Source: Lepisosteus oculatus (Eukaryota; Chordata; Actinopteri; Semionotiformes; Lepisosteidae). Taken from it: a stretch of 64,000 nt of DNA. The stretch covers positions 4,204,501 to 4,268,500 of the forward strand of contig NC_090714.1 in assembly GCF_040954835.1 (NCBI RefSeq), written 5' to 3'. Below, one piece after another: positions 10,161 through 43,534 of the stretch. The notes below the pieces were generated by a model. The model was not told the origin of the DNA. It worked only from the letters and a program-made list of their open reading frames with translations, and searched no databases. A program made the translations under genes and the position numbers. Every line of letters starts with the position of its first letter. The first letter of the stretch is position 1.

Positions 10161-11810
10161 ACAGCTGGAATATGTGCCTGGACACTAAGGTATTGTGCCG
10201 AAGAATTGAGTGGAGTTTTTCGACAACTCTTCCGGCTCTCGTTAGACACTGGCACTGTTCCAGCTGTTCAGAAGCACTACACAGTTGTACCCATTCCTAA
10301 GACGAATAGACCTAAAGCTCTCAGTGACCTCAATGATTTCAGGTCTGGCTCCATGAATGATGAGGGGCTGTGAAAAGTCACATATTGGGGCTGCAATCGA
10401 GTCCGCCCTCCAGTTTGGTTACCATCCTGGAAGGGGAGTTGATGATGCTAAAATGTTTCTACTCGGAAAAATGTAACCACATTCAACAACATTCTGGTTG
10501 GAAAAACTAATCACACGTTTCAAATTAGATCGTCAGCTTATCCTGTGGATCGTTAGTTTTCTGACCAATAGCACACAAAATGTATCTACTAATGGTTTAA
10601 CATCTGTCTTCATTTACACTTCTACTGGTTCACCACAAGACTGTGTTCTTTCTCCCCGGTTTTTCATCTCATATACTGACGACAGTCAGAGCAACTACGA
10701 AAATCATTACATCATCAACTAATACACTGTCATGCTGATGACAGTCTATTAGTCTCTCTCCTCTCAGAGCCAGGACAAACACACAGACCCATTCTGGACA
10801 ACTCCTTCAGCTGGTGTGATACTTCCTGCCTCGAGATGAATGTGTCAAAAAACAAAAGAAGTGATTGATGGTTTTAAAAAAAACCCAAAGCAACATCTTT
10901 CCCACAACAATCCACAGTTACAAATATCTGGGCACTGTGTTTGACGATAAACTTAAGTTCACCGAGAACACTGACGTCATTGTGAAGAAATCCCAGGGGC
11001 GCTTTTATGGTCTGAGAAAAGTCCAAGTAGGAATTCTTTCGACATTTTATAGCTCTTTCATTGGAAGTATTTGAACCTTTTCTTTTATCTCTTGGTTCAC
11101 TTAGTCAAAAAAAAGACAAAAAAATGTTGTAAACCTCTGAAATCCTTGGTGAGCCTTTCAGACCCCTGGCACAGCTGTGTGCCCAGCAGCCCCTGAGGAA
11201 GCTCACTTCCTTCAGCAGTCTCCTGACCTTCTGCCTTCAGGAAGACGTTTTTGTCCACAGCGCAGGATGGATAGAACGAAATTTAGCTTCATTCCAGAGG
11301 CCTGGGGCTCACGAACAATGACTGGAAATTATGTCTATTGGACAGAGCCCACCACCCCTACTCCCCCCACAAATAATACCTAATGCCAGACACTGCTCCT
11401 GTCATAAACTCAAAACCTTCTTCTTTAGAAGGGCATCTACTTAACTGGTTCTGTTATTTACTCCTCTGCTTCTACTGTACTCAGTACACCCATCTACTGT
11501 CTCTTCCTTCTGTGTATTCCTGTGGTGCATATACTGTGCATGTGTTCATTGTTGTTGTCGTTCTGTAAAGTGCTTCAAGCCACCTTTAAAGGTGTTATAC
11601 AAATCAAGTTTATTATTACTTTCAACCACTTTGATGGTTCGTTTGCTGTTACACCTATGTCTAGTTTTTCTTAGCAATGTTTGAATTTTGTTTGGGGGGC
11701 TTTTTGGTTTCTTTGTTTTGGTCTTGTGTTGTATGTTGCACCAATGTGCTGCTTAAATTGCCCCCCGCCCGGGGAATAAAGTAGGTTAAATTGAATGAAT
11801 GAGAGTCTCT
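10161..11810 (+). mobile_element. Non-LTR retrotransposon remnant, jockey superfamily (CR1/Rex1/L2-like)
   Basis: Translated pieces follow the reverse-transcriptase order of fish CR1/Rex1/L2-type LINEs. They are CAEELSGVFRQLFRLSL and VVPIPKTNRPKALSDLNDF (10190-10350), TGSPQDCVLSP (10620-10660), an ADDSLLVSLLSEPGQTHRP-like catalytic block in another frame (10735-10790), and SYKYLGTVFDDKLKFTEN (10915-10970). Several frame changes and stops separate them. The 3' untranslated part ends in 'tgctgcttaaattgcccc' and a short A-rich tail near 11810. The 3' region is interrupted by another fragment at 11345-11627. A second copy of the same 3' end is at 46311-47012. Confidence 0.8.
11345..11627 (+). mobile_element. 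LINE/SINE 3'-tail fragment nested in the LINE at 10161-11810
   Basis: The segment ends 'gtaaagtgcttcaagccacc...ttattatta', the familiar 'gtaaagcgctttgagccacc...tatataaataaa' tail with an A/T-rich end. Comparison with the uninterrupted copy at 46741-46880 shows that host-LINE text resumes after it ('ttactttcaaccac' against 'ttactttcaaacac'), supporting a nested insertion. Confidence 0.6.
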
Positions 11811-12554: not shown

Positions 12555-14056
12555 AGGCAAAGACGAAAACCTCCGCCAGAACAGTTTTTAAAGGAGACCA
12601 AATGAAGGCTGATACAAGATTAATCAAACCTGGCTTCTGACTTTTAATTATTTAGAAATGTCTAAAACACGGACTGGATCCTGGAGCTGGGCGTCTCCGC
12701 TTTGACGCAAGAAAATTGAAGTACAATCCCACTCCGTACTTCTAGCCGAGCCGCTGATGAAGTAACCTTCAATTGGACATTTACGTTTTGTTTTCAATTC
12801 AATTCAAAATACTCTATTCATCCCCAGGGATTCAGATTGTCATTAGTAAAAGGTTAGAAATTAGCGTTAACCTTGCGCCAGAAACAGTTTTAGATTTCCT
12901 GTCTTTTAGCTTTGGATCAAGCGGTAAGAATTATATAGTGTTTGATAGTCAATCTCACCTGTGGTTACTGTACTGTACATCACTCGTTGGGTGTGGTATA
13001 TAACCTTTATATGCAGTGTATAATACGATACTGAATTTGAATTACTTTTTAAATTAATCAGAATGAGTTTGCATCTCTCTTAAAGATGACAATTATGAGT
13101 TCATATAAAGTTCCTGCATACCTGTCACACACAGTTTCCGCTAGTTTGTTGCCAGCTGTCTGATTTTCATAGACACCATTTTTACCACCTGCACTCTTTG
13201 CACTTGACTACAGTAACTTTCTTATCTTATAGTATATTAAATAATAGCTTCTCTGATCGTAATAATAAGGAGCTCTAATAGTAATATTCAATGCTCCTTT
13301 GATTGCAAAACTAGTTATTACACCCGTATCACTATTCTGTTTTCTATGCATACAGCAGTTCACTTTGTATTTACATGCATTGCTTCTGATTATTAACCTT
13401 TCAATCTGAAGGACTAAAATTCTATGTGGAACCTTGCCAAACGCCCATGGAAATATGAAATATAGCACGTCGTGACACCTACTAGCATAAAGGAACTAAA
13501 GGGATACTCTGTCCAGACACCAGCTGGGGTATTAAACATTAAGATGAATTTAGTTGTTCATATATTTTTTTTAAGTTGTCTTTAAAATCGTTTCAGACAT
13601 TTGGTTTAACAAAAATTTAAAAACAACATTTTAAACACTCAGACTTGAGACATACATACAGTATGACACATGACATACAGGCTCCCCCAACTGCATATTT
13701 TGATACTTTATTTTTCACTGTCATTCGAAAAGATAATCAAGTCATGTCCAGTCGCAAAATAGGCTAGAAAAGCGCTTTACAAGGGCGTTTCAGTACTTTT
13801 AATGCTTGAAAAGAGAGCAAACAGGTGGAACCGCCTCGTCTCAGGGCTGTGACTTGGCTTTAGGCTGAATAAGAGATGTACATGGCCGGTATTTTGCGTG
13901 GCCGGCCTGGTGGCTCCGCGGGCCAAACCATCGGACACTTCTAAAGTTCAGAGAGCAGATCGACTCCCGGAGAGTCTTGTGAGTTGAAGTCGAGCCCCGA
14001 GCCTCCCCGTCAGTCTGAGATCTAAACCCCGGGTGTAGCTCTCGTGCTGTCGGGGT
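12555..14056. repeat. Older partial copy of the duplicated unit (matches 19133-20491 and 37910-39202)
   Basis: The block runs collinear with the middle of R1 and R2. The first ~1.25 kb is only roughly 80% alike by eye (shared strings 'ccttgcgccagaaacag' and 'cttttagctttgg'). The last ~230 bp (13825-14056) is a GC-rich island about 95% alike to 20236-20491. Homology stops exactly at 'ctgtcggggtg', after which this locus continues into the left end of R1. No protein is recognised. A 103-codon - strand frame (14152-13841) overlaps the island but is not open over the same span in the other copies. Confidence 0.8.
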
Positions 14057-14884
14057 GCTTCTTCTTCTGGGAAGGAGAGATCCTGCACACTGAACTCGTT
14101 GGAGGACACAGCTGCCACAATGCAGGTAGGAGTATCTCTGCTCTGCCGGCACACAGCCTGTGTTTTACAGTCCAGGCTCTTTTGCACAAAGCACCTGTCA
14201 AATGTAAAGCGCTTTGTAAAATACCAGCTCTTCCCTCGTGTATTCTTGTTTCTGTCAGTATCACGTGTGCACCTGTCCTTCTCCAGCAGTGTTTAGACAT
14301 GAACTGGATTCTCTAAGTATCACTTTGTCCACCTGCTTCACTGGAAGAATGTGTGAATGTTCTCTCTAAAATATTTATTCATGGAAGATAAATTTTTGAT
14401 GTTCATTTTCACATCACTGTGTACTGAACTATGAATTTCAGTTTGTAGAACTTTTGTGATGCCACCACGGGCACTGCACTGAATGGGAGGTATTTTAAGG
14501 AGATTTTGCTCAGACTGTTGATCTCATTGAGATGGTGGAACTGAAGTACTGCAACATAAAACACCGCAATGATGATCGAAGTGGAACAAGACAGAGCAGC
14601 GCTCATAACTGCAGGCCATATAAATCAAACTCAGAGATAACAGAGGGTAGAAACTGAAGCCAAGCTGCACACAAACTACAGCTGACTGGATATGGTGAGT
14701 ACATGATTTCCCATTTGGAAAAGAACATAGAGAACGTGTTGGAAGACAACAGGAAAACAAAGACTTTGTATTAAACTAAACCAATGCAAAACAAAGAAAG
14801 GGCAGGGGGAGAAGTGAGAATTAGAAAAAAGAAAAAGGTAAAGAAATAATCAATAGCAGGTAGTATAAGATAAAAAAGTAAAAA

Positions 14885-15480
14885 ACAGACCTTTTGATCT
14901 GACATGTCTTTAACTCACCAGATCGGGGACTCCTTTCTGTTTCTTTATGACCTCGCTACCTGCCATGGGAGTTTGGGCAGGCGTTTGCAACTCTGCTGTA
15001 GATTTCTCCTGATGCTGATTATAAAACTGCCTCAGAAATTCATTTGGGAGATTTCAATGGCTGTTTGCTTAAGTCAGTTCTCCCTAATGATTATCAGTTT
15101 GTAAAAGGCTACACAAGAGGTTCTAGGACATTAGATCCCTGTTATGGTAACATTAAGAACACCTGTAAAGTTCATATCAGACCACCGACATGATGATCTG
15201 ATCTAATCCAAAAGAAAGAGCAGGAATTCAAAGCTGTGATAGATTGAGAGGGGAAAGTGATTCAGAGGAATATATAGGAAGAATTGAAACATGATAAAAG
15301 AGATTATAATTCCAAGGTGGAGAAACTAATGAATAGAAATAATGTACAGGAGGCGTGGCGTAGGATCTAAACCATGATTGGCCAGGTGCCCCTTAGTAAT
15401 GTGCAGAAATGAACAAGTCTTGAAGAGCTTAGTCCTGTATTTTATAACGTATTCTAAAAGTCACTAGAGATGTATACAGT
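14885..15480 (+). mobile_element. L2-type LINE fragment, end of endonuclease domain (R1)
   Basis: Translation in the LINE frame gives GDFNGCLLKSVLPNDYQFVK-type text, including the GDFN motif of AP endonucleases, followed by GYTRGSRTLDPCYGNIK (15100-15160). Frames are broken and no reverse transcriptase follows in this unit. The same fragment sits at the same place in R2, so it was present before the duplication. Confidence 0.75.
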
Positions 15481-18147
15481 TCTGAGTTTGTGGAAGACAT
15501 CTGCACATTGGCATAACTATCTTAAAAATCTATAACCTGTTAAGTGAAAATATTTCTGTCCAGTTACATTAACTTCAGTCACAATGAAATAATTTGAACG
15601 AATAGTTTTAGTTCATCAGCACAGCTGCTGGAGGATATTCAAGAGCTGAAGGTCTTCTGTAACTGAAGGGATTGATTTGTGTTTATTTTACTTTAGCGAC
15701 TTCCTAAGATTTCATGAAAAGGCGTGTTTTGTTGTTCACATGTTTTTAAACAGTGTACGAATAGGTGGCACTCTTCCCTGTGGCCCATCATTTCCATACC
15801 AAAGCCCCAGTACAGAGACTTTAAATATACTGGGTCCTACAGGGCTCAGACAGGTCATTTCAACTCATCCTCTTGGAGTTTTATCTGGGACTCAGTATTG
15901 CTAACAGGTACGTTTACATGCTCCTGGACTTTCTACTGTACTAAGCATGTCAAGTCCAGCCCTACCTGATGCAGTTATAGATGAGATAAGAACTCATGGA
16001 TATAAATGGTATGATTTTAGGGCCACTTTGTCCTAGCAGAAACCCATCACTGACACTTGTACTGTTATTTTAGATAGTTTTAATTGGGTTAGGTTTGTCT
16101 GGCAATTTGTTTTTATCACAGTTATTTAAGATAATATTTTACATACAGCTATATAATTAATCATAGATAATGATTGAACAATGGGCTTTGTATTGATTCT
16201 ATTTTCCTCTGGGCTTGAGCAACTGTCCCTCCTTGTGCTGACAACCCAATTCTACAGAAAACCTGTCATGAGTTGTTTTGAACTGTGGGAATTATATTTG
16301 TATCTGCAGTTAATTGTGGGTGTCTGTATATATACAGTATATATCAGTGCTCTGGGGTAGTGTAAAACTAGCTTGGGGAAGGCCAGTAACTATCTAAATA
16401 TCACAAAGGGACATTGGGCAGATTAACCTTTACTTGTGTGAAACTGACTGATTTTTAGGCTCATAATGATTTTCAATATCAATTATATATACACGAAACA
16501 GACATGAAATGGTTACATAGCAGTTTGGTTCTACAGTAAGTAGCCTTGTCTCATACTGAAATCTGTTTTCACATTTGTTGATGTAGGAATGATTACATCT
16601 CCAGTGATTTCTGATTGTATTTCTATACTCTCAACAGTGCTGATGATCACAGGCCTTTCCCCTATGTTCCTGAGCTGGGGGGATCATGAGGACCATCTGG
16701 ACACTCAACACGGTCTGCAGCCTCACCTGCATGAGAGGTCATTCTGAACAGCAGGTTCTTACACCATTAAGAGGGAGTTATGATGCAGGGTTTTGTCATT
16801 CAGGGGTTTAAAAGATATCACATTCCAAATTCTTTTAAGAAATGTTGCTATGAAAACATAAAATAATGGAGTGATCATTTTATCACTTGATACTCATTTT
16901 CTGTTTTGTAAATAGCTCTGCACCTGCAGTAACAAATGTTGAAAGTTGTATCTCTTCACATCTCTTGTTTTTCAAGGAATCAGTGGATAGTTTAGTGTTT
17001 CGTGTTTTGTTTTGTGAAAAAAAGGAAATGTAAACTAACTTTGTAAGCAAACAAAGAATGGTTTTCCTCCCGAAATGTCTTTTTCTGAGTAAACTTCCAG
17101 TTTCTTTCATTGTGTCTATGCTGTGGGGACTAGACAGATCTCTCAGAGACCTGGATAGACATTAAGATTGAATTACATTTGATACGTATTTGTCCTAAAG
17201 TAGTAAACAGTTAATATTGTTTAGAAGAAGAGCTGTTGAGTTGGATTCTGCTTCATGCAGATTAAAAATTAATCCCTTGAATGTTCAGAATGTTTATTTT
17301 TACTGTCACTTATAGCTAAATGTTTAAGTGTTTCTTCCTTTAAATATATGTGCATCTTAATCATTAGTAGTTAAATTGCTTATATTCTTGAGTCCACACC
17401 CAAAATGCCTATTTAAATGTGGAATGGTGTTCAGAGTTGTGTTGTGAAGCAGATTGTGGGTTTGTGCATTATAGCACCAGACAGGTGCTAATTAACCATG
17501 CAGTGCTCTTTCAGAGGACAGGCTGCTCTGCTCATACAGGACTGTGATCATTTTTCTCATTGTGTGCTCAGCCACAGGAAAGCACACTAAACCTCTCTGA
17601 TGGGTTTACATTCTCTCTCAAATTCTTCCCAATTATATGAAATGTCTTCACACAACACTTTGTAATTAACATTGTATTCTCTTGTCTGTCCTCAGTTTCT
17701 CAGAAGTCAAGCTGCAAGCAGGACTAAACTCCAAAATGAATGTACTGGGACTACAGCTGCAGCTCCTTATTATTGTCAGAAGCAGTCTGGACAAGAGCAA
17801 TATTCACTTAGAGGGAGCTGTGATATTAAGCAAATGCAAGCATCCCTAAATTATTTTAGCGATAGGAATTGTCTTATGACACAGTTGCTTGTGTACATGC
17901 AAGCAACAGCTGGAGTTGGACAGTCAAAAAGCTTGTACAACGACTGCCATGGATGAAGATGAAACATCATAAATTCATAACTGACAGCCACTCTGAGCCG
18001 TCTGCAGGGGCAGAGGAAACATGTAGGTTCATTAAAAAAAAAAACAGGAGGACGATCCCCTGTCGAGATGCCCTCTTACTACATAAAAATTGAGCGCACC
18101 AAAATAACCAAACAAATTGGTTCAAGAAACAATCCAATGACACTGGT

Positions 18148-18707
18148 TTATTGCAAAAATTGAACAAAAAGAAAACGAACAGGCGTTACTCGGTCGGCTG
18201 ATATCCAGAAGCTCCGGCGGTCCGCAGTCTGGAGCCCCGGGAGAGGAAACGCTCCAGTCAGGACAGCCGGCCGGAGAGACGGTGGCCACCCGGGACCGCG
18301 AGGTGAGGCCGGCTGCTCTCCGGGATCAACTGCTGCTTAAACAGGGGAGAAAAAGCGTTTTTTATACATATAGTCGCAAGTTCTGGCCTCTCGCCTTAAC
18401 CTGTACAAAGTTACACCACTTTTGGAAAGCAAAAATAAACGGTTTAGTCGTAGGGAGGTGTTCAACGGAGCGAAACCCTGTTTTACCCGTACTGACCATT
18501 TCCCTGTGGTATTTCCCCCACCCTCAGATTAAGTGAGCGCAGCTGTGGGCTTCTTCACAATCTACTGCTTTGCCATGCTGAGAAAAGTCCATTGGTCCTT
18601 GGATTTCTCCGACTACAACCACAAAGATCTCTTTAAACCCGAAAGCAAGAGGCTCTGCAAGCAGAGTGCAGACCGGTTGGATTCTCACCTTCGAACTGAC
18701 CGCTCAT
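18148..18707 (-). other. Candidate two-exon small open frame in GC island (R1)
   Basis: On the - strand an ATG at 18707-18705 runs 19 bases to a GTGAGA donor (exon edge 18689). A pyrimidine-rich acceptor at 18334-18333 opens a second exon that stays in frame to TAA at 18150-18148. The stop lies inside an AATAAA hexamer (18152-18147). The product would be 67 residues (MSGQFE + AVDPGEQPASPRGPGWPPSL...). R2 keeps the same structure with 66 residues (37471-36915), the only indel being one codon. Substitutions between the copies are mostly amino-acid-changing (about 13 against 6 silent), close to the neutral ratio, so protein coding is doubtful. A spliced non-coding - strand transcript would look the same. 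Confidence 0.25.
18187..18310 (+). promoter_or_regulatory. GC-rich island with splice-donor-like edge (R1)
   Basis: CpG-rich sequence in an otherwise AT-rich unit, ending at 'cgggaccgcgag/gtgagg' (donor at ~18303). It is well conserved in R2 at 36955-37068. It could be a + strand promoter and first exon, or the body of a - strand terminal exon (see the small open frame across it). No TATA box was noted. Confidence 0.35.
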
Positions 18708-20235
18708 CTGTCCAGTTTCACGCCACACGGGAGCTCTGCGCTTCGGCGTCCAGGCTGGTGTAGAGGACAGGAAGGCCGGGAAGCTGGAGAGGAGAAACTA
18801 GTGAATAAGACAACTGCTGAAACACCACTAACAGACCTGAGCAAACATTAAAAATACAGGTAGCTATTTTAAATAGTAGCAACAACGATCCGTTCAATTT
18901 CGTCTGTTGAAAGATACGAAGGTTACTGGTTTAGTTTGAGTTCATCCAGAAAACCTTTTCTAAAAATGCAGTTACTGGTCGCCTTCTTAATTATTCTGAA
19001 GCTCTGATTCCTTTTCATGTTTCATTTTGAACTACTCCCATCTAAATAGGAAGAAAACTTTCCGGCATTCTGCTACCCAAATGAAGCAAAACATCCCATG
19101 ATTATTTTTATGTCACTGCAGAGCCACTATTTAAGGATAAAAACGCACTACTCTTGCCAGAACAAGTTTTAAAGGACACTAATTGAAGGCTGATAAAGAT
19201 TAATCACACCTGGCTTTGGACTGTTAATTAATTAGACATGTCTAAAACACGGACTGGATCGTGGAGTTGACATGGATCCCTCAATCTTTCCGACACAAGT
19301 AACGGGAGTCAATCCCGTTCCATACTTTTAACTACACCGCTGATGAAATAACATTATTAAAACTTTAATTGAGGATTTACGATCTGTTTACAGTTTAATT
19401 CAAAATACAATGTTCATCCCCATCTATCATCAATAGTAAAAGGTTACAAGTTAGCGACACCCTTGCGCCAGAAACAGTGTTTCAGAATTCCGTCTTTTAG
19501 CTTTGGGTCAAGCAGTAAGAATTATACTGTTAGTGTTTGACAGTCAGTCTCACCTGTGATTACTGTACTGTGATTACTGTACTGTACGTCACTCCCTGAC
19601 CGTGGTTCCCTTTTCACTGTAAAACCTGTGTATACAGTGTAGAACACGATATAGACTTTTAATGACTTTTTAAAGTAATCAAAATGAATTTACATCTCTT
19701 TTAAGATGACACTTAAAGGTATGAGTTATTACAAATCTCCTAAACACCTGTCGCACACTGCTTCCACTAGTTCACTACCAGGTGTCTGATATTCATAAAA
19801 AACACTTTCACCACCTGCACTGTGCACTTGACTACAATAACTTTCACATATTATAGTTTATGAAATAATAGCGTCTCTCATAGTAATAATAAGAAGCGAT
19901 GTGATGCCCCATTTATTGCAAAACTAACTTTTACATCCTTGTCACTGTTCTGTTTTCTATGCATACACCAGTTCACTTTTTATTTCCATACATGGCTTTT
20001 GATTTTCAAATCTTTAATCTTTAAGCTTCTATGTTGAACCTTGTCAAACGCCCATGGAAATATAAATATACTGTCGTGACACCTGCTGTTCTGAGGAAAT
20101 AAAGGGATACTCTGCCCAAACACCAGCTGGGGTATAAAACATTCAGACCAATTTAATCGTCCATGTAGTTTTATTAAAGTTGTCTTTAGAATCATTACAG
20201 ACATTTTTAAAACATAATACCTGGTGAAAGAGCAA

Positions 20236-20491
20236 ACAGGGGAAACCGCCTCGTCTCGGGGCTGTGACTTGGCTTTAGGCTGAATAAGAGATGTACATGG
20301 CCGGTATTCTGCGTGGCCGGCCTGGTGGCTCCGCGGGCTGAACCATCGGACACTTCTAAAGTTCAGAGAGCAGATCGACTCTTGGAGAGTCTTGTGAGTT
20401 GAAGTCGAGCTCCGAGCCTCCCCGTCAGTCTGAGACCTAATTCCCGGTCTGAGACCTAATCCCCGGGTGAAGCTCTCATGCTGTCGGGGTG
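20236..20491. promoter_or_regulatory. GC-rich conserved island, second of R1
   Basis: The island is conserved in all three copies (13825-14056, this one, 38955-39202) at about 95%, while its AT-rich left neighbour has drifted to ~80% in the oldest copy. It contains CpGs and the strings 'ggccggtattctgcgtggcc' and 'cctggtggctccgcggg'. This copy also holds a short tandem repeat of 'ggtctgagacctaat' (about 20440-20462). No known gene or RNA recognised. Confidence 0.4.
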
Positions 20492-20959
20492 AGTTTGTCG
20501 AAGTGGCTGTTCTCTACCACGCCGGCCGTTTTGGGGGGCTCCATTTTCGGGGCCTTCCAAAACAGGGAAAATGGGGGGTTTAAGACCTTTATGAATGCAT
20601 AGATCGGAATTCAATTCGAAAAAGCAGCCCCTTATACCACTGAGACACCTGCAGGACAGGTGTGGCACTAGCAGTGAAAGAGAGGTGCAGTCCTAACTAG
20701 GAGCGACAGGGGTCTCTCTCCAGCACATTTCTCTTGATTCGACCAGCTGGCCGCAAGCTAAACGAGTCCGGCAAACAGTTTTGTAGGGGAATGTCACTGA
20801 ACTGGGTTCTCTGAAAATCCTCAGCCGTTAAATACTAAATTTATGATTTGGTGAGTATAAGTTTCTATTTATCTTCAGTAGCGTGAGTGTTGAGCCCTTG
20901 TAACCGAGTGCACAGCTGTCGTTCAGGAGCCGAGCCCGCCCCCAGAGTGACCTTCCTCA

Positions 20960-22355
20960 GCGGACACGCCCCGTCCACCTGTTCCACAGGTGCGCCCGGC
21001 AAGATGGCAGCGGGGTGAGTTTCTGCGGCGTGAGGTGCGTTTGCGTTTTATTTCGAATTTTCTTATTTTAAATGCAAAAACTAAAATTTCACTTTGAGGA
21101 AAGTTAGATAAAAATGTTTTGTTGTTGCAACTTTTGTTAATTGCATTTGTTCCTGTTTAATTTGTGTTTTAGGACGCCGAAATGACTGTCTGAGCGTGCT
21201 CTCGAAGTTTTGGAAGACTGCATTCAGCGTTCTTAAACTAACTTTCATGTAAATATTTTTTAAAGACATGGCATCTCTAGCTCTGTTTCCTTTAACGAAA
21301 AATGCTGTAATTTATCTTCAGTCACTTGCTGTATAAAGTTAGTAACCGTGTATCTAACTGATAGTATCTGCTTTTCCTAATTGGGTTATAATTTCGCTTT
21401 CCGTTCCGAAATGATCAACTTTTGCAAAGATTAAATGTACTAATTCGTATGTTTTCTTTTTTCTCCAGGTGACAAAAGGATTTCAAAAACCGGCCTCCAG
21501 TTATTAAAGTGTTTTTTCCCGAGGTAAGTTTTATTCTTATCTTACGTTATACTATTTATATTTGTGTATTAAAGACGACACGTATTTCACAGCATGTTAA
21601 CACCAGAACGGTTTTATACTAATGTTATCACTTCTTTTCGTTTAGTTGTGCTTTTGCTGAATACAAATAGGAAACACTAAATCGCTGGTTCTTTTTTATG
21701 GATTCTTTTATTCATAATAGGCTGAAGCTACTCTCTAAATATTGGAGTAGTGGGACTGGGATGTATCTGTGATTTCTCATGCTGTTACCTATTGGTTTCT
21801 TGTTGAATTTGAGCGTGTTTGTATGTTTCTTTATTGGGGCAGTTTATTTAAGAAGTTAAGACTTCAGAACTTCAAGTGAATCGATTGTGCAAATCCGATA
21901 TATTGTTAACTTGATCCTATTTCTTTTGCCTTCAGTTCTGCGGCTCCTGATCCTCTGCGCTCCGACGATCTGCTTTCCAATCCACTCCAGCAACTCGTCG
22001 TGCTTTGGCAGGTTCTTCTTGACAATGTGTGCTTTTTCTTGAACTTTATTTTAATATCGGTGGCTTGATCTGTAGTGTACCGTTTGTATATCGATATATA
22101 TTATTGTTAACCTGAATGTTTCATGTTGACTGCTGCTATTGTATGTGCTGCGGCTCCTGGTTCTCTGCACTTCGACGATCTCCGGCAATTTATTGACAAA
22201 GTGTGCTTTTCTTGCATTTGATTTTTGTTACCAGTACCTTGATCTGTAATGTCCTGATTCAGTGCTGTATTTTATTCTTGACCTGCATGTTTTCTGTTGA
22301 CTGCTGCTATTGTATGTGCTTTGAATTCTGCAATAAAAACTCCTTTCATTGTCTG
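20960..22355 (+). ncRNA. Predicted spliced long non-coding RNA, + strand (R1)
   Basis: Inferred from signals only. The GC-rich start region has an inverted E-box pair (CACCTG 20976-20981, CAGGTG 20987-20992) and a YY1-like 'aagatggcagcgg' at 21001-21013. Exon 1 would end at 21014 before GTGAGT. An exon probably opens at 21173 ('tttag/gacgccg'). A 55-nt exon lies at 21469-21523 ('ttctccag' to 'gag/gtaagt'). The last exon opens at 21936 ('gccttcag/ttctgcgg') and runs to AATAAA at 22332-22337. The last exon contains a 210-bp tandem duplication (units starting 21938 and 22148). Open frames are short: the ATG in the 21173 exon stops after three codons. R2 keeps the inner splice sites and polyadenylation signal but has lost the ATG and GT donor of exon 1. 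Confidence 0.4.
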
Positions 22356-22824
22356 CATTGTCCTGTATTTTCGAAGGTGTGAAGTGTTGTCTTGCGCGTG
22401 CGCCACGCACCGCAAGGCGACAACCCATCGCACTAACCTGGAAAAGTGCGAGGACGCCCGCCTTTTTAGATAGTCTGGGGGGGAATAGGGTCCCTAGGAG
22501 GGAGCGTGGGTCTAGCCCTGGGGGGAGGAGAAGGGAGGATAGCTCTAGCCAAGCCCCGTCACTCCCAGCAGGAGGGGAAGGCAGGCTGGAGATGGCCTCG
22601 GCCCGAGAGAGAGGAGGCACCCAGGGCGGACTCAGCCCATCAGTCACAGCTTGCAACTGACAGCTTTCTAAGTCCACACCCCAGGAGACCTGCCTCTCTG
22701 CAGGGACCAAAGCCACCACCAACCTGCCATCCTCTCCTGCCGGGAGCGGGTGGGCCTGGCTAGAGCTGCAGTCAATCAGCCAGCCCCCGCCTACCCCTCT
22801 CCAATGAGGCTTGATTGCTACCAC
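22228..22824 (-). other. GC-rich 198-codon open frame, coding status unclear
   Basis: This is one of the longest open frames outside host genes: proline-, serine- and leucine-rich, no domain recognised. R2 keeps the same frame open (ORF 41396-40902, 164 codons from its own ATG). The copies differ at few sites, and most of those change residues, so there is no sign of protein-level constraint. The opposite strand is also open (22349-22660), as expected for GC-rich DNA poor in stops. It overlaps the predicted 3' end of the + strand transcript and has no clear promoter or splice context. Confidence 0.15.
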
Positions 22825-22831
22825 ACCCCAA

Positions 22832-22985
22832 GAAAAACCCCAGATACTAAGTTTTTTGGCGGGAAAATCTGGACACGCTTAAAAAGGGGGTAGCCTTTGA
22901 CCTTTTTAAGTCAAAAAGCGATAGGGCGTCCCCTTGCGGCCGCAAAATCTCTCCGCCAAAAAACTCACCAACACCGGGGTTTTTC
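22832..22985. repeat. Nested inverted repeats with E2F-like motifs (R1)
   Basis: Outer arms gaaaaacccc (22832-22841) and ggggtttttc (22976-22985) and middle arms gttttttggcgg (22851-22862) and ccgccaaaaaac (22953-22964) share nearly the same centre (~22908). An inner pair cttaaaaagg (22878-22887) and cctttttaag (22901-22910) forms a separate hairpin. The left middle arm reads 'ttttggcgggaaaa', the textbook E2F-type element. R2 keeps the middle and inner arms exactly. It could be a foldback/MITE-like remnant or a regulatory element. Confidence 0.6.
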
Positions 22986-23034
22986 AGGGCCAAGGGGGTA
23001 CAGAACTCTGCACAAAAAAATGAAAGAACAACAT

Positions 23035-24400
23035 CAAGGTTCAATCAACCATTTATTGAGCGAAAATGGCATACAAAACAAAGCATTACAATACGTCAAA
23101 TGCACAAGCTTAGAAGTGAAAATGAACATGCATTTCAATCACAAAGTGTCAAAGCACGGCTACATTAATGCAAAATACTGTTACAAGTTAACAGAGTAAG
23201 AAAACATTTGCAAGCAGCTACATGTTAAAACAGAAACACACAGCACGTTACTGTTTCGTCGAGGCAGCGACCGGAATGAAGACTGCAACTTTGTTGCAAT
23301 TCCTGCAAAACAACAAAATCAGAATTAACTTTCGGTTACAAACAGGATCTCGAAATTATCTCAGGCAGATAGATGTTCTGAAACGATTCTTGCGTTCAAA
23401 AGATGAAAGTTTTAAAAGATTTACAGATGCAATAAAGCGATTAGCCTGGTGTAACAGTTACATTTAAAGTGTGAATACTGAAACAACACAGCTAGAGTGT
23501 GTCGATTAGGAACTACCACTACGAATGTGCTCTTTAACGTTTTCCATTTTGATTAGCATATTCGTTTTCTGCAACAATTAATTTAACACACAAAGTTAAT
23601 CCATATCTTTATAGGCTCCGTTGTTTTAATTGTTGTGATGCAATTTGGACGCCAAAACGGTTCTGAATAATTATTATACGCAGCAACAAACCCGAAATTG
23701 ATCGTAGTTTAGCAGAAAACGAGTTCTATAAATAGCAGGCCTACAATTTTGTAGGGTCAAAACCATTTCTGCCCGGGAGAAATCTAGTATCGCCTAGTTT
23801 GAGTCTTTTTTTGACAAGGTGTATCACATTTCCAACAACAATTTTCAGGAGATACATTATCTAATGTAGTTCAAAATGATACGTGTAAACGAATAAAAAG
23901 GTTTATACTTACATCGATAATTCCACCAGCTGAGCCAAGCATGTCCTACCCGCAGACACCGAACTGGAAACACAAGAACACAAGTGTTTAGACGATTATT
24001 TAAAGTTACATTAAACCAAGGTTTCTTAGTAGTAAACAGGGTTTTCACCAGGCTAGATAGCGCAGAAAACATTTCAAAGAAATACGTGTAAAGGAATGAG
24101 TAAAACGTTTATACTTACTTGGATAATTGCAGCAGCTGAGCCAAGCATGTCCTGCCCGAAGACACACAAATACAGAATTTAGAATTTAAAGACCATTAAA
24201 ACTAACAAGTATTCGTTGCAAGATAGATTTTTATCACTTTTCCTGCGAGGTTTAGACTACATAATTACAAGAGTTAAATTTTATCTATATTCAAATAGAG
24301 GAAAAACAGAAAATAATCATAAAAGACGCGGAACAAACTCACTCAGCTCCGCTCTCTCCAGCAGAAACCGGCGTACAGGTGCGCGGGGCGTGGCCTGCGA
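23035..24400 (-). ncRNA. Predicted spliced long non-coding RNA, - strand, with duplicated 33-nt exon (R1)
   Basis: Signals on the - strand: a GC-box-rich start ('ggggcgtggcc', 'gtgggcgtggcc' at 24380-24430), with exon 1 ending at 24343 before GTGAGT. There follow two 33-nt exons, 24151-24119 and 23945-23913, both beginning GACATGCTTGGCTCAGCT and followed by GTAAGTATAAAC. The last exon opens at 23302 ('gttttgcag/gaattgc') and ends near 23035, after AATAAA at 23057-23052. If translated from the ATG in the last 33-nt exon it would give only ~35 residues starting MLGSAGGIID. R2 keeps most of this (42667-42635 and the last exon), but its tiny frame ends earlier. I favour non-coding RNA. Confidence 0.4.
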
Positions 24401-24814
24401 GAGATGTCATTCGAGTGGGCGTGGCCACAGTCTGACGGTACAGGTTGCTTTTTTCTTGGCTCCACCTGGAAACTTGTTAAAGAAATCGAGCATGTTTACA
24501 GTAGCCCCCATGAATTACAAGTTTCAAAATCTTTCCCATAGCCCACTGAGTAATCACAGTGCATTTAATCCTTATTAGTATCTGAAAGCCGCATGATGTG
24601 AATGAAATAATGTAGCAATATGTAGGCGAGCTGTGGGGTCTAAAGTTCTTTGAAGGACACTTACTGTTCTATAACCTGATCTATATAAACTCTGCACCAA
24701 GAAGTCCGATTTTTCATGTGTAAACGTTTATCGTGCACTCAATTTACCACCTTTCTACTTCTAATTAGTCATGCAGCTGAAGTGTTGATGCAATACATTA
24801 CAAGAACATGAGAA

Positions 24815-25060
24815 AATTCAAATGAGAGGACAGTATTTGATCCATGTAGCCCTTTTGGTTAGTGAAATCAGTTTGATTGGATAGTCTCAAAGAACCATTG
24901 TTCAAAACTAAAGAGGCTGTTGGTTTCAACAAAATGGCTGGATTGCCTGTGCCACTCTCCCACAACTCTTTGTGTAAAGAAGTTTTAAATACACTTTCCC
25001 ATGACATCCTTTCATGCTTATCTTGGGTCATGTCAAAGTTGTCCACACTGTATTACTGCA
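24815..25060 (-). repeat. LINE-derived 3' repeat fragment (R1)
   Basis: The - strand carries 'acacaaagagttgtgggag', then 'tggcacaggcaatccagcc' and 'attttgttgaaaccaac', a widespread fish repeat. The same family lies at 43535-43790 (R2, -) and 57770-57985 (+). Family name not certain. Confidence 0.65.
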
Positions 25061-25650
25061 ACTTATTTTTTTTTTAACTGGTTAACTGCAGCAACTAATT
25101 AAAACATTAGCATAACACTAGTGCACTGTACTGAAGTACATGTTATATTCAAATAAACTCAAATCTCAGATTTCATGCTTCACTTGTTAAACCAGGCGGA
25201 CCCACCAGGGCTTTTGCAGAGGCAGAACCTACCTGGCAGGAGATGAACAATTTCCTAAAAAGCTCTGGAGCAGGATCAGCGTAAATGGTGTCCAGTAGAA
25301 GACTCCCAAGTACTGCGAGAGGCTCAGGCGCAGACTCTGGGAGCTGGTGAAAGCAGCAGGGAGGAGGAACTCAGTCAAGGAAAGCTGGCTGATTGCAAAG
25401 AGGTGTGTGAGGCCATGAGGGTTTTGGCTGCCACTATGGACATCTTAGGCTCAGAGTCTACAGTTCGCTGATGTCTCTGTCCTCTCTGATCTCCTCTGAA
25501 ATCAAGCCCTAGGTCCCTCACATCGCTGAGTTCTTCACTTGTGGTGTCCTGAGCTCAATGAGCTTCACCTCCGGCTCTCACCCTCTGGCTAGTCCTTGTC
25601 AGGGAGAAGCAGCGGATCGCCCTCGACTCGATCAATCTAGTTTGACCAGA

Positions 25651-31413: not shown

Positions 31414-33289
31414 CAGATTGTTTTCTAGATGACGATCTTCCTACACTCCTCTCTGAAACAGAATGTGTTTGAAGTTCCTAAAAGTACAGGACTGGTAGGA
31501 TTACAGAAAGTCACAATTGTATAAATTAAATAGAAGGCAATTTTCTATCCTCTGAATCATATTTACATCTTCATTAATATTCTTTGGATTGTAATGACCA
31601 CAAATGAGTTAGAACAGAGCTCTTATTATAAGTATCATGCTTGACAACAGAATCCACCTACAGTATAACAAATGTTGTGTGTGTGTAGGTATGTAGATGG
31701 ATGTAAGTTTGTCATATGTCTATTGTATGGTGTTTATTCAGATTGCTGTGGGTGTTGTTTTTATGCAAACTTGTCAGTTGTGGTTTGACTGCTAAAAAAG
31801 CCTTGAGCTATGTGTTACGGTGACTGGGAGGTGTGGCCACCATACTGTGTCCATATAGCGCTTAATTGGAACAGTTTGGGACTCAGTCAGTGTTACTGTC
31901 ATCACTGAAGCAGGAGACGATTTTTATTGACTCAGTATAAATCAAGTAAATGCAGTGAAAACTAAGTAAAAAGTATGTCATTTAAAAGTTATTAAATGTT
32001 TAAAAGGAATAAAATCTGACTCATATGTATTCAAGTGCCGTTATAATTGAAAAAAAAAAACAATTTAATATTGTCCGCTATCACCTACACTTGAGGCAGG
32101 TTTTGACATTCATGCAGATTTTTACAATTGGAACAGTCCAGTAGTCATCTTGTAAAGATGATACAGCCACCATTCAAACACAAGACACAAAATGAAGAAA
32201 ACCCAGACTCGCCTGTATCAGGATGTCTGCTCATAGCTTGACCTGGACATGCATGCAGAATGCCAAGTTTACACCAAGAGTGTGAAAGATGAGAAATGAA
32301 AAAAATTAGGAATCCCTATATTTGTGACAGTGCTGACTTTCTAATGAGAGAAACTGAAACATGTTAGTGTTCACTTGCTAATGAGAGGACTCTCTCCAGT
32401 TTTAATCGAGAGTGTGTGCATTGTGGATTATTTCAGACCTGAAGGCTTCTTCTTCTGGGAAGGAGAGATCCTGCACACTGAGCTCGTTGGAGGACAGAGC
32501 TGCCACAATGCAGGTAGGAGTATCTCTGCTCTGCTGGCACACAGCCTGGGTTTTACAGTCCAGGCTCTTTTGCACAAAGCACCTGTCAAATGTAAAGCGC
32601 TTTGTAAAATACCAGCTCTTCCCTCGTGTATTCTTGTTTCTGTCAGTATCACGTGTGCACCTGGACTTCTCCAGCAGTGTTTGGACATGAACTGGATTCT
32701 CTAAGTATCACTCTGTCCACTTGCTTCACTGGTAGAATGTGTGAATATTCCTGTAAAATGTTTATTCTTGGAAGGTACACTTTTGATGTTCGTTTTCACA
32801 TCACTGTGTTCTGAACTATGAATTTCTGTTTGTAGAACTTTTGTGATGCCAGCCACCACGGGCACTGCACTGAATGGGAGGTACTTTAAGAAGAATTTGC
32901 TCAGACTTTTGATCTCATTAAGGTGGCGAACTGAAGTACTGCAACATAAAACACCGCAATGATGATCGAAGTGGAACAAGACAGAGCAGCGCTCATAACT
33001 GCAGGCCATATAAATCAAAACCAGAGATGACAGAGAGTAGAAACTGAAGCCAAGCTGCACACAAAATACAGCTCACAGGATTTGGTGAGTACATGATTTC
33101 CCATTTGGAAAAGAACATAGAGAACATGTTGGAAGACAACAGGAAAACAAAGACTTTGTATGTAACTAAACCATAGCAAAACAAAGAAAGGGCAGGGGGA
33201 GAAGAGAGAAGAAGAAAAAAGAAAAAGGTAAAGAAATAATCAAGAGCAGATAGTATAGGATAAAAGAAGTAAAAAAACAGACCTTTTGA

Positions 33290-33790
33290 ACTGACAAATC
33301 TTTAACTCACCAGATCGGGGACTCCTGTCTGTTTCTTTATGACCTCGTTACCTGCCATGGGAGTTTGGGCAGGTGTTTGCAACTCCTCTGTATATTTCTC
33401 CTGATGCCGATAATAAAACTGCCTCATAAATTCATTTGGGAGATTTCAATGGCTGTTTGCTTAAGTCAGTTCTCCCTAATGATCATCAGTCTGTAAAAGG
33501 CTACTCAAGAGGTTCTAGGACATTAGATCCCTGTTATGGTAACATTAAGAATGCCTGTAAAGTTCATATCAAACCACCAACATGACGATCTGATCTAATC
33601 CAAAAGAAAGAGCAGGAATTCAAACCTATAATAGATTGAGAGGGGAAAGTGATTCAGAGGAATATATAGGAAGAATTGAAACAGGATAAAAGAGATTATA
33701 ATTCCAAGGTGGAGAAACTAATGAATAGAAATAATGTGCAGGAGGCGTGGTGTAGGATCTAAACCATGATTGGCCAGGTATCCCTTAGAA
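33290..33790 (+). mobile_element. L2-type LINE fragment, end of endonuclease domain (R2)
   Basis: Counterpart of 14885-15480, with the same GDFNGCLLKS-like and KGYSRGSRTLDPCYGNIK text. It is followed by R2-only sequence. Confidence 0.75.
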
Positions 33791-34209
33791 ATGGGAGCTG
33801 GCTTGAGCACACACCCCACTATGTAAATGAACTGATTTTTTTTTTTGCTCTGTTCGAGAGAAGAGAACCAGGAGAACCTATTTTTAACAATGTGATTGAC
33901 CCCACTGGTGTGTCTCTCTTTACTGTAACATCGAAACAAGTGAAGTGTGTGTTTTTTGTGTTTTAAGGACTCGAAAATGAATGTGCCTGGAAAATCTGGA
34001 AGGCAATACTTTGCAGAAATGAACAAGTCATGAAGAGCTTAGCCCTGTATTTTATAAATTATTCCAAACGTCACTGGACATATATACAGTTCTGAGTTTG
34101 TGGAAGACATCTGCACATTGGCATAACTCTATCTTAAACATCTATAACCTGTTAAGTGAAAATATTTCTGTCCAGTTACATTAACTTCAGTCACAATGAA
34201 ATGATTTGA

Positions 34210-38954: not shown

Positions 38955-39202
38955 TGAAAGAGCAAACAGTGGAAACCGCCTCGTCTCGGAACAGTGAATT
39001 GGCTTTAGAGATGTACATGGCCGGTATTCTGCGTGGCCGGCCTGGTGGCTCCGCGGGCTGAACCATCGGACACTTCTAAAGTTCAGAGAGCAGATCGACT
39101 CCCGGAGAGTCTTGTGAGTTGAAGTCGAGCCCCGAGCCTCCCCGGCAGTCTGAGACCTAAGCCCCGTGAAAAAACTCGGTGAAGCTCTCATGCTGTCGGG
39201 GT
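38955..39202. promoter_or_regulatory. GC-rich conserved island, second of R2
   Basis: Counterpart of 20236-20491. A - strand frame of 151 codons (39380-38925) crosses it, but the R1 frame is interrupted within the same span, so I do not call it a gene. Confidence 0.4.
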
Positions 39203-39679
39203 GAGTTTGTCGAAGTGGCTGTTCTCTACCACGCCGGCCGTTTTGGGGGGCTCCATTTTCGGGGCCTTCCAAAACAGGGCAAATGGGGGGTTTAAGTCCT
39301 TTATAAATGCATAGATCGGAATTCAATTCTAAAAAGCAGCCCCTTATACCACTGTGACACCTGCAGGACAGGTGTGGCACTGGCAGTGAAAGAGGGGTGC
39401 AGTCCTAACTAGGAGCGACAGGGGTCTCTCTCCAGCACATTTCTCTTGATTCGACCAGCTGGCCGCAAGCTAAACGAGTCCGGCAAACAGTAGGACATAC
39501 AACATTTTGTAGGAGAATGTCACTGAATTGGGTTCTCTGAAAATCCTCAGCCGTTAAATACTAAATTTATGATTTGGTGAGTTCAAGTTTCTATTTATCT
39601 TCAGTAGCGTGAGTGTTGAGCCCTTGTAACCGAGTGCACAGCTGTCGTTCATGAGCCGAGCCCGCCCCCAGAGTGACCT

Positions 39680-41030
39680 TCCTCAGCGGACACGCCCCGT
39701 CCACCTGTTCCACAGGTGCGCCCGGCAAGAAGGCGGCGGGGCGAGTTTCTGCGGCGTGAGGTGCGTTTGCGTTTTATTTCTAATTTTCTTCTTTTAAGTG
39801 CAAAAACTCAAATTTCACTTTGAGGGAAGTTGGACAAAAGTGTATTGTTGTTGCAACGTTTGTTAATTGCATTTGTTCCTGTTTAATTTGTGTTTTAGGA
39901 CGCCGAAATGAGTGTCCTGTCTGTTTGAGCCTGCTTTCGAAGTTTTGATGTAATACTTTCATGTTAGTATTTTTTAAAGACATGGTATCTCTAGCTCTGT
40001 TTCCTTTAACGAAAAAAGTTGTAATGTATCTTCAGTCATTTGCTGTATAAAGTTAGTAACCGTGTATCTAACTGATAGTATCTGCTTTTCCTAATTGGGT
40101 TATAATTTCGCTTTCCGTTCCGAAATGATCAACTTTTGCAAAGATAAAATGTACTAATTCGTATGTTTTCTTATTTCTCCAGGTGACAAAAGGATTTAAA
40201 AAACCTTTTTTTCCGAGGTAAGTTTTATTCTTATCTTACACTATACTATTTATATTTGTGTATTAAAGACGACACGTATTTCACAGCATGTTAACACCAG
40301 AACGGTTTTATACTATTTTTTTGCTGAATACAAATAGGAAACACTAAAGCGCTGGTTCTTTTATGGATTCTTTTATTCATAATAGGCTGAAGCTACTCTC
40401 TAAATATTGTAAATTTTGGAGTAGTGTGACTGGGATGTATTTGTGATTTCTCATGCTGTTACCTATTGGTTTCTTGTTGAATTTGAGCGTGTTTGAATGT
40501 TTCTTTATTGGGGCAGTTTATTTAAGAAGTTAAGACTTCAGAACTTCAAGTGAATCGATTGTGCAAATCCGATATCTTGTTAACTTGATCCTTTTTCTTT
40601 TGCCTTCAGTTCTGCGGCTCCTGATCCTCTGCGCTCCGACGAACTCATTTCCAATCCACTCCAGCAACTCGTCGTGCTTTGGCAGGTTCTTCCTGACAAT
40701 GTGTGCTTTTTCTTGAACTTTATTTTGATATCGGTGGCTTGATCTGTAGTGTACCCTTTGTATATCGATATATATTATTGTTAACCTGCATGTTTCCTGT
40801 TGACTGATGTTATTGTATGTGCTGCGGCTCCTGGTTCTCTGCACTCCGACGATCTCCGGCAATTTATTGACAAAGTGTGCTTTTCTTGCATTTGATTTTT
40901 GTTACCAGTACCTTGATCTGTAATGTCCTGATTCAGTGCTGTATTTTATTCTTGACCTGCATGTTTTCTGTTGACTGCTGCTATTGTATGTACTGTGAAT
41001 TTTGCAATAAAAACTCCTTTCATTGTCTGC
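39680..41030 (+). ncRNA. Predicted spliced long non-coding RNA, + strand (R2)
   Basis: Counterpart of 20960-22355. Kept: exon at 40183-40217, last exon from 40610, AATAAA 41006-41011, and the 210-bp tandem units starting 40612 and 40822. Changed: the exon 1 edge reads 'cggggcgagt' (GC instead of GT) and the ATG in 'aagatgg' is 'aagaagg'. If expressed, it may start or splice differently from R1. Confidence 0.35.
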
Positions 41031-41543
41031 ATTGTCCTGTATTTTCGAAGGTGTGAAGTGTTGTCTTGCGCGTGCGCCACGCACCGCAAGGCGACAACCC
41101 ATCGCACTGACCTGGAAAAGTGCGAGGACGCCCGCCTTTTTAGATAGTCTGGGGGGGAATAGGGTCCCTAGGAGGGAGCGTGGGTCTAGCCCTGGGGGGA
41201 GGAGAAGGGAGGATAGCTCTAGCCAAGCCCCCTCACTCCCAGCAAGAGGGGAAGGCAGGCTGGAGATGGCCTCGGCCCGAGAGAGAGGAGGCACCCAGGG
41301 CGGACTCAGCCTATCAGTCACAGCTTGCAACTGACAGCTTTCTAAGTCCACACCCCAGGAGACCTGCCTCTCTGCAGGGACCAAAGCCACCACCAACCTG
41401 CCATCCTCTCCTGCCGGGAGCGAGTGGGCCTGGCTAGAGCTGCGGTCAATCAGCCAGCCCCCGCCTACCCCTCTCCAATGAGGGGGGGTGGGCGAGGCTC
41501 GGCTTGATTGCTACCACACCCCGAGAGAAACCCCAGATACTAA

Positions 41544-41668: not shown

Positions 41669-41734
41669 TCACCAACACCGGGGTTTTTCAGGGCCAAGGG
41701 GGAACAAAACTCTGCACAAGAAATCAAAGAACAA

Positions 41735-43270
41735 AATCAAGGTTCAATCAACCATTTATTGAGCGAAAATGGCATACAAAACAAAGCATTACAATAAGTC
41801 GGATGCACAGGCTTCAAAGTGAAAATGAACAAGCATTTCAATTACGAAGTGTCAAAGCACGGCTACATTAACGCAAAATACTGTTACAAGTCAACAGAGT
41901 AAGAAAACATTTGCAAACAACTACAAGTTAAGATACAGAAACACACAGCACGTTACTGTTTCTCCGAGTTATCAGTCGAGGCAGCGACCGGAATGAAGAC
42001 TGGAACTTCGTTGCATTTCCTGAAAAAACAGAAATCAGTATTAACTTTTTGTAACAAACAGGATCTCGAAATTATCCTAGCTATTTAGATCGAGTTTCTG
42101 AACTGATTCACACGTTCAAAAGACACAGTAGCAATAAAGCGATTAGCCTGGTGCAACAGAGTGTTCCTGTTCAACAAGGTATTGAAGCAGTTATATTTAA
42201 AGATTACATTCCATGTGTGAATACCCAAAGCACAATACAGCTAACGTGTGCCGATTGCAGACTAACATTCTTTTTATGCTTTCCTTTTGGATAAGCACTC
42301 TTTTCCTGAAACAGTTTAGTTAACACAAATAATTCATCCATATCTTTAAAGGCTCCGTTGTTTTAATTGTTGTGATGCAATTCGAAAGCCTAAACGGTTT
42401 CTGAATATTCTATTAGACGCATAAAAAAAAACTAAATTGATTGTAGTTTAGCAGAAAATGATTTCTATAAACAGCAGGCCTATAACATCGGGTCAAAACG
42501 ATTTCTGCCCTGGAGAAATCTAGTATCTCCTAGCTTGAGTCTTTTTTCGGTGCTGTGCATTACATTTCCAAGAACAGTTCTCGGGAGATACTTCAAAATG
42601 ATACGTGTGAACGAATAAAAAGGTTTATACTTACATTGATAATTCCAGTAGCTGAGCCAAGCATGTCCTGTCCGCAGACACCGAACTGGAAACACAAGAA
42701 CACAAGTATTTAGACGATTATTTAAAGATAAATTAAACCAAGGTTTCTTAGCAAACGGCGTTTTCACTAGGGCAGATAGCGCAAAATATATTTGAATGAG
42801 ATACTTGTAAAGAAATGAATAAAATGTTCATACTTACGTTTAAACTCCCAATATTTAATGCGAATCGTGTCCTTCCCTAAACTGAGAATAGCAAAATTTA
42901 CAATTTTAAGCCCATTAAAAGGTTAATTGCAAGCGACAATTATATTACGAATGTAAGAGCAAACTCTGGAAAATAACGAAAATCTTTACAAAGCTACTTT
43001 TCAAAGTCCTTTCCAAACGCAGGTTTGGAAGAATGCACACGCTTAGTTTTGTGAACAAAGGCGCATGAAAAATGCTATTTAGCTCCCAACGAAAATACGT
43101 GTTTTACCCTTTTCTCATGTAAGGTTTATTCTACATAATGACCTTAAATGTTATCTACATTCAAATAAAGGAAAATAAAACATAATCATAAAAGACGCGG
43201 AACAAACTCACTCAGCTCCGCTCTCTCCAGCTGAACCTGGCGCACAGGTGCGCGGGGCGTGGCCTGCGAG
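41735..43270 (-). ncRNA. Predicted spliced long non-coding RNA, - strand (R2)
   Basis: Counterpart of 23035-24400. Exon 1 edge at 43212 before GTGAGT, a diverged exon-like segment 42871-42838, the 33-nt exon 42667-42635, last exon from 42019, and AATAAA 41760-41755. Spacing of the two small exons is kept (203 against 206 bases). Confidence 0.35.
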
Positions 43271-43534
43271 TGATGTCATGCGAGTGGGCGTGGCTACAGA
43301 CTGATTGTGCAGGCAGCTTTTTTCTTAACTACACCTGAGGAAGAAATCGAGCGTGGTTACAGAACCCCCCATTAGTTACTAGTTTCAAAATCTTTTTTTC
43401 CCCATAGCCCACTGAGTAATCACAGTCAGTGCATTTAATCCTTATTAGTATCTGAAAGCCGCATGATGTGAATGAAATAATTTAATTCTAATTAGTCATG
43501 CAGCTGATGTGTTCATGTAATACGTTAAAAGAAC

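Follow-up and report, generated by a model that had tools for sequence, protein, structure and literature searches.

Genomic context of the convergent locus

The stretch of Lepisosteus oculatus DNA analyzed here (64 kb in total, hereafter the window) holds parts of two recognizable protein-coding genes. A coding exon of the TMEM11 family was found on the minus strand at 50890-51414 (Pfam Mito_morph_reg, E = 7.7e-77). On the plus strand, the ORF at 5962-6354 encodes part of a short-chain dehydrogenase (Pfam adh_short, E = 1.2e-7), which we take to be DHRS7B. The name TMEM11 for the first of these is likewise presumptive, and TMEM11 and DHRS7B are presumably neighbors in human. Another ORF (2382-2753), which had no Pfam match, was read by eye as belonging to the same gene as 5962-6354. 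The sole Rfam match over the 64 kb window was 5S-like and was located at 5475-5592. Comparison of the window with itself identified a tandem-duplicated unit, the two copies of which span approximately 14057-25650 (R1) and 32445-44522 (R2). BLAST blocks between R1 and R2 were 79.5-93.9% identical, and identity per 100-base bin ranged from 56 to 100%. The locus described below is located in R1, between the dehydrogenase and the TMEM11-family genes. Nothing recognizable as this locus was found among the literature matches listed.

Predicted transcription units

The initial annotation had proposed two convergent noncoding transcripts, assembled from splice sites, GC-rich start regions and AATAAA signals. 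The donors and acceptors that it listed for both strands are all present, as are the two poly(A) signals, which lie approximately 0.7 kb apart in a tail-to-tail arrangement (Table 1). GC-rich starts were confirmed at both outer ends (GC 0.65 and CpG observed/expected 0.91 for 20905-21050 in the plus unit; 0.61 and 0.89 for the start of the minus unit), although only the plus start passed a 200-base screen. The last exon of the plus unit includes a tandem repeat (22016-22149 and 22190-22320).

Table 1. Predicted features of the convergent locus in R1 and of its R2 copy, in positions of the window.
Feature	Position	Strand	Details
Plus unit, GC-rich promoter and exon 1	20905..21014	+	Donor after 21014 (GGG/GTGAGT), score 10.2; putative transcription start site
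Plus unit, exon 1 alternative donor	after 21034	+	
Plus unit, exon 2 (55 nt)	21469..21523	+	Acceptor 16.4, donor 11.5
Plus unit, exon 3	21936..22358	+	Acceptor 12.1; AATAAA at 22332; putative 3' end
Inner ends of arms, GC-rich imperfect palindrome	22358..22997	.	Axis ~22655; between the poly(A) signals; 0.64 kb
Minus unit, exon 3	23036..23302	-	Acceptor 12.8 (R2 12.0); AATAAA at 23057; putative 3' end
Minus unit, exon 2b (51 nt)	23913..23963	-	Acceptor 10.3, donor 7.5; retained in R2
Minus unit, exon 2a (33 nt)	24119..24151	-	Acceptor 6.6, donor 8.7; tandem copy of exon 2b
Minus unit, GC-rich promoter and exon 1	24343..24452	-	Donor after 24343 (TGA/GTGAGT), weak (5.4); putative transcription start site
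R2 copy of plus unit	39631..41032	+	Exon 1 donor GC; exon 2 cut to 35 nt (40183-40217)
R2 copy of minus unit	41739..43321	-	Donor 43212, exon 42685-42635, acceptor 42019; exon 2a relic

Splice sites were scored with vertebrate splice-site weight matrices. All acceptor-donor pairs 25-300 bases apart were then scored on both strands of the whole 64 kb window, with 30 Markov-simulated windows as the control. Exon 2 of the plus unit ranked first in the window, at 27.9, followed by its R2 copy at 25.7. The score of 27.9 was reached in none of the 30 simulated windows, the best simulated pair scoring 25.1, and it also exceeded that of a pair within the Pfam-matched dehydrogenase ORF (6011-6163, 20.1). 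The middle exon of the minus unit, of which 23963 is the best acceptor, is ordinary by the same measure: its summed score is 17.8, and 104 pairs in the window score at least 17 (58.6 +/- 10.9 in the simulations). On the basis of these simulated-window scores, the plus unit by itself exceeds chance expectation, whereas the minus unit does not. The last exons were assessed by counting acceptors of at least 10 followed by AATAAA within 80-700 bases. Since 36 such stretches were found in the window, the two last exons among them (8.1 +/- 2.6 in simulated ones), both last exons are unremarkable in this respect. The likeliest interpretation of these signals is that of two convergent noncoding transcripts, spliced and polyadenylated, chiefly for the plus unit.

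Mirror-image organization of the two units

When the minus unit was reverse-complemented and compared with the plus unit, three collinear matches emerged, arranged around a single axis at approximately 22,655. These are an outer match (20937-21093 versus 24421-24272; 63.5% of 159 columns, E = 8e-10), a middle match (22410-22468 versus 22939-22880; E = 0.017) and an inner match (22541-22626 versus 22767-22680; 75% of 88 columns, E = 6e-12), for which the R2 equivalents had E values of 2e-9, 0.007 and 9e-13, respectively. The other matches obtained for R1 and R2 in this inverted search of one arm against the other had E values of 0.12 upward. The outer match takes in the promoter, exon 1 with its donor GTGAGTTT and the first part of intron 1. 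The promoter alignment scored 65, compared with a maximum of 52 in 1000 shuffles, and the promoter piece aligned to the minus unit in the wrong orientation scored 29, a value reached by 42 of 500 shuffles. This is a new observation: at both of their ends, the plus and minus units are inverted duplicates of each other, in R1 as well as in R2. What had been annotated as a pair is better termed two inverted copies of one ancestral unit, a relationship that the earlier reading had missed.

In an inverted self-search of the whole window, two pairs lay within 5 kb and above 37 bits in each of R1 and R2, the inner palindrome and the pair of promoters, and there were no others. The pair at 22410 was too weak to appear in that search. 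Likewise, profiles built from the four promoters and from the four inner ends matched only the four arms in the window at E < 0.05. The inner-end profile additionally matches its own complement inside the palindrome. A candidate third copy of the arm near 28.6-29.3 kb was rejected, its profile matches being weak (E = 0.083 and 0.01) and their scores within background.

Between the matching ends, the exons of the two arms show no recognizable likeness. Alignment of one R1 arm against the other did not rise above shuffles for exon 2 (100 of 500 shuffles reached the score), exon 3 (210 of 500) or intron 2 (347 of 500), so that homology across the whole arm was not found. In R2, the corresponding scores were reached by 278 of 500 shuffles for exon 2 and by 77 of 500 for exon 3. 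No alignment above shuffles was obtained for the outer flanks of the arms. The intron 1 comparison was marginal (3 of 500 shuffles) and that from the poly(A) signal inward was better (1 of 500). Under stricter scoring, the transcript bodies were at background (19-31) and the inner ends scored 64, compared with a maximum of 36 across the arms and one control stretch elsewhere in the window. A second control stretch, which holds a known repeat, scored up to 341 under the same scheme. The distances of the landmarks from the axis are similar on the plus and minus sides (1641 and 1688 bases for the exon 1 donor, 1186 and 1308 for exon 2, 719 and 647 for exon 3, and 323 and 402 for AATAAA). Because the landmarks are similarly spaced about the axis in this way, we infer that the bodies of the arms quite likely share descent as well.

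The arms meet in a palindrome between the two poly(A) signals. Its core (22541-22767) is self-complementary at 106 bits, and its R2 copy at 118 bits. These inner 227 bases are not a near-perfect palindrome, being 69% (R1) and 71% (R2) self-complementary in a gapped alignment. The inner region folds better than expected (z = -9.0 in R1 and -7.4 in R2), with an additional local hairpin (22370-22440, z = -5.8) directly past the plus poly(A) site. The R1 and R2 copies of the inner palindrome are 98.5% identical with 3 gaps, the highest value among the 16 segments, although certain 100-base bins in other parts of the unit match as highly. We take the self-complementarity of the palindrome to stem mainly from the meeting of the arms. 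The possibility that it represents a selected RNA was considered and set aside, as each of the few R1/R2 differences inspected by eye affects a single pair, either breaking or restoring it, with no double change seen.

Sequence change between the tandem copies

The inner splice sites and both poly(A) signals have counterparts in R2, as had been noted from the start. The accompanying claim that they survive within changed DNA holds for the minus unit, in which exons plus promoter match at 382 of 416 positions (91.8%) and introns at 731 of 900 (81.2%, p = 3e-7; exon 2a, with 11 of 33 bases matching in its R2 relic, is left out of this count), but not for the plus unit, where 442 of 458 aligned positions in exons 2 and 3 (96.5%) and 778 of 816 in the introns (95.3%) are the same (p = 0.39). 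Gapped positions are excluded from these identities, and a single gap removes 20 bases of plus exon 2. The excess in the minus unit comes mostly from exon 3, which adjoins a long and highly similar tract. With exon 3 omitted, exon 2b and exon 1/promoter together gave p = 0.015, and each of them compared singly with its own neighbors gave p = 0.24 and 0.44, respectively.

Several predicted elements were altered in R2. The exon 1 donor of the plus unit has changed from GT to GC, the ATG of the same exon reads AAG, and 20 of the 55 bases of exon 2 are deleted. Exon 2a of the minus unit survives as a relic at 42900-42786 (E = 2e-7), its donor still present. As a control, we followed splice-like sites in the aligned unit that belong to neither model. 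In R2, 27 of 30 such donors and 5 of 8 such acceptors persist, compared with 3 of 4 donors and 4 of 4 acceptors of the models above the same thresholds (model donor 24343 and acceptor 24151, both below the thresholds, were left uncounted). Since the sites outside the models persist about equally well at this level of divergence, retention in R2 does not argue for function. A simulation of neutral change gave probabilities of 0.002 to 0.00015 for the four minus-unit splice sites holding their R2 scores, to which we give little weight because these sites were preselected as conserved and the control shows no special retention. Among them, the acceptor of minus exon 3 changed in score only from 12.8 to 12.0 despite one indel and about five substitutions in the gapped alignment, which counts modestly in favor of the locus; the simulated probability of 0.8% for this acceptor counts 9 of 22 ungapped differences and thus overstates the case. 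The conservation argument for the locus is weak. The proposal of a functional locus is left unsupported, with indels in an exon of the plus unit and plus exons no more conserved than the plus introns.

Coding potential and RNA family searches

The open frames are trivially short, as had been claimed: the longest ORFs were 25-38 amino acids in all seven transcript models, no longer than expected by chance (equalled by 58-91% of random sequences). Six-frame translation of 12.0-26.7 kb yielded no Pfam match at E = 0.01. A small peptide on the minus unit, carried in frame by the copies of the 33-nt exon, was considered and rejected, since a 12-base insertion in R2 cuts the frame, the R1/R2 changes inspected by eye alter amino acids, and a frame of that length is expected by chance.

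No Rfam family reached its curated score at the convergent locus and none came near its cutoff in 20.4-25.0 kb. The best match under permissive settings was to MIR1858, presumably a plant family, at 40.6 bits against a cutoff of 137. It falls inside the inner palindrome and outside any intron, and the score was attributed to the GC-rich hairpin instead of to homology. Structured last exons were considered and rejected, as neither folds better than shuffles (z = -0.10 for plus exon 3 and +0.70 for minus exon 3).

Origin of the locus

The observed sites, mirror-image ends, tandem copy and lack of a frame above chance are best explained if one small transcription unit was duplicated in inverted orientation long ago and the resulting block was later duplicated in tandem, probably yielding two spliced lncRNAs, an account that we consider to have about an even chance of being correct. 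Each arm would comprise an outer GC-rich promoter, a short exon 1, a middle exon of approximately 50 nt, an AATAAA-bearing last exon and a GC-rich 3' flank, and the two 3' flanks would meet as mirror images at approximately 22,655. Transcription by RNA polymerase II would initiate at the two outer promoters and proceed inward, with termination sites approximately 0.7 kb apart. The products would be two spliced and polyadenylated RNAs of approximately 0.4-0.55 kb without a meaningful reading frame, and the whole inverted block would later have been duplicated in tandem to give R1 and R2. That the units are transcribed and spliced is somewhat more likely than not.

The likeliest of the alternatives is that the sequence is dead or was never transcribed, the duplications carrying splice-like and AATAAA sites that are not regularly transcribed, or just the relics of a former gene. 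This is rather unlikely. In its favor, sites outside the models survive about equally in R2, plus exons are no more conserved than plus introns, R2 lacks the plus exon 1 donor and part of exon 2, and the splice sites of the minus unit are of ordinary strength. It sits poorly, however, with the first and second rank of plus exon 2 and its R2 copy among the exons of the 64 kb, with the CpG retained at both starts and with the stable score of the minus exon 3 acceptor. The mirror-image layout of approximately 3.5 kb and the strong self-complementarity of the inner 227 bases would also be expected of a foldback or long-terminal-inverted-repeat mobile element with promoters in its arms, the transcripts then being those of the element. 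We consider this unlikely, as the four arms were the only copies that the promoter and inner-end profiles found in the window, and R1 contains no Pfam domain. The outer ends of neither the R1 nor the R2 copy showed a target-site duplication, the longest shared words in the 46-base flanks being of 4 (R1) and 5 (R2) bases compared with shuffled means of 5.2 and 5.1, in a test that has low power with uncertain element ends; for lack of this duplication the locus was not classed as a mobile element. A distinctly unlikely alternative is that the two units are unrelated neighbors in which the promoter likeness (through shared factor sites) and the palindrome (an unrelated hairpin) arose independently. 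The failure of the bodies to align between the matching ends would fit such an origin, but the 159-column promoter match extends into intron 1 and was equalled in 0 of 1000 shuffles, the landmarks are nearly equidistant from one axis, and no comparable inverted pair within 5 kb exists elsewhere in the window.

Exon 1 of the plus unit in R1 reads CAAGATGGCAGCGGG/GTGAGT, which we presume to resemble the start of a housekeeping gene, and the locus could on that account be the remnant of an inversely duplicated protein-coding gene that lost its frame. Such an origin is documented for some mammalian lncRNAs (PMC5577775). It is just as distinctly unlikely here, given that the exon 1 ATG is AAG in R2, that no domain and no ORF above chance were found in the seven models, and that a 64-base inner block has no clear third-position bias (3, 5 and 6 mismatches by phase). 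Short noncoding exons, a GC-rich start and introns conserved as well as exons in the plus unit are also the attributes of a host gene for intronic small RNAs of the snoRNA type. Among the Rfam families searched there was no match to sustain this, the best snoRNA family in 20.4-25.0 kb reaching 22.1 bits under permissive settings against a cutoff of 65 and none appearing at E = 1 across the whole window, so that a snoRNA host is extremely unlikely. It is very unlikely, too, that the locus is a palindromic, tandemly amplified noncoding gene pair whose arms keep their promoter and splice layout while the exons drift, and whose actual product is a hairpin RNA formed by read-through of the palindrome.

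Should the inverted duplication of a transcription unit have any function, transcription itself, or the promoters as local regulatory elements, would be likelier to carry it than the RNA sequence, because the plus exons show no special conservation and no likeness is recognizable between the exons of one arm and those of the other. If the duplication account is true, a convergent lncRNA pair would have arisen by inverted duplication and not by chance neighborhood. Four descendants of one unit (two arms in each of two tandem copies) would then lie within one 30-kb stretch. If transcribed, they would constitute a natural test of how lncRNA genes originate and of what such genes keep, as the promoter and splice layout could be compared with exon sequence across the four copies.

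Comparison with known systems

Lineage-restricted spliced lncRNA loci of vertebrates are typically short and polyadenylated, with few exons and a GC-rich start. The units described here are likewise short, with few exons, a GC-rich start, a poly(A) signal and no ORF above chance, but they are known from predicted sites and form a mirror-image pair that was duplicated again in tandem. Foldback and long-terminal-inverted-repeat transposons share the long inverted arms, whereas at this locus no target-site duplication was seen, R1 lacks any Pfam domain and the window contains no further copy. Loci whose hairpin RNAs feed endo-siRNAs are known from flies, and these too consist of an inverted repeat able to fold on read-through. 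Here, by contrast, self-complementarity amounts to 69-71% over the inner 227 bases, and the predicted transcripts end before the palindrome. Finally, HOXA-AS3 and HOXB-AS3, lncRNAs from paralogous regions (PMC8330917), are also paralogous noncoding transcription units; these belong to separate HOX clusters, whereas the units of the present locus are inverted neighbors, with 3' ends approximately 0.7 kb apart.

Repeated sequences and extent of the tandem array

Self-comparison of the window revealed a block of roughly 1.4 kb that is present three times. Because the diverged copy ends where R1, the upstream of the two tandem-duplicated units, begins, the tandem array may formerly have been longer.

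Copies of the ~1.4-kb block in the window
Feature	Position	Remarks
Block copy	19156-20491	within R1
Block copy	37901-39203	within R2
Block copy, more diverged	12575-14057	73-88% across two parts; end coincides with R1 start

Direct repeat pairs were also found by self-comparison at 4854-5206 / 7654-8023 (88% alike) and 11154-11354 / 46610-46814 (93% alike). A profile search linked the flank of the predicted noncoding unit (24756-25167 in R1, 43483-43898 in R2) to a diverged inverted relative at 57957-57814 (E 4e-12), and these sequences probably represent a dispersed repeat. A 5S rRNA-like match spanning the full model length (5475-5592, 42.7 bits) is possibly a 5S-derived SINE.

Predicted transcript end and inner palindrome

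The third exon of the predicted + strand noncoding transcript contains a tandem repeat (22016-22149 / 22190-22320, 77%) that is retained in R2. Immediately past its poly(A) signal lies a short strong hairpin (22370-22440, -34.8 kcal/mol, z -5.8), in which the single R1/R2 difference falls, as judged by eye, outside the stem.

Open frames on the - strand (22228-22878 in R1, 216 aa; 40902-41510 in R2, 202 aa) span the inner palindrome, the GC-rich self-complementary stretch between both poly(A) signals. The R1 frame, the one searched against Pfam, had no match, and both frames are probably a consequence of high GC. Within 22800-22965, the E2F-like sequence TTTTTTGGCGGGAAAA occurs close to a CCAAT and an A/T-rich box, and this cluster includes a 13-base inverted repeat (22850-22862 / 22953-22965). 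The region could be a further promoter.
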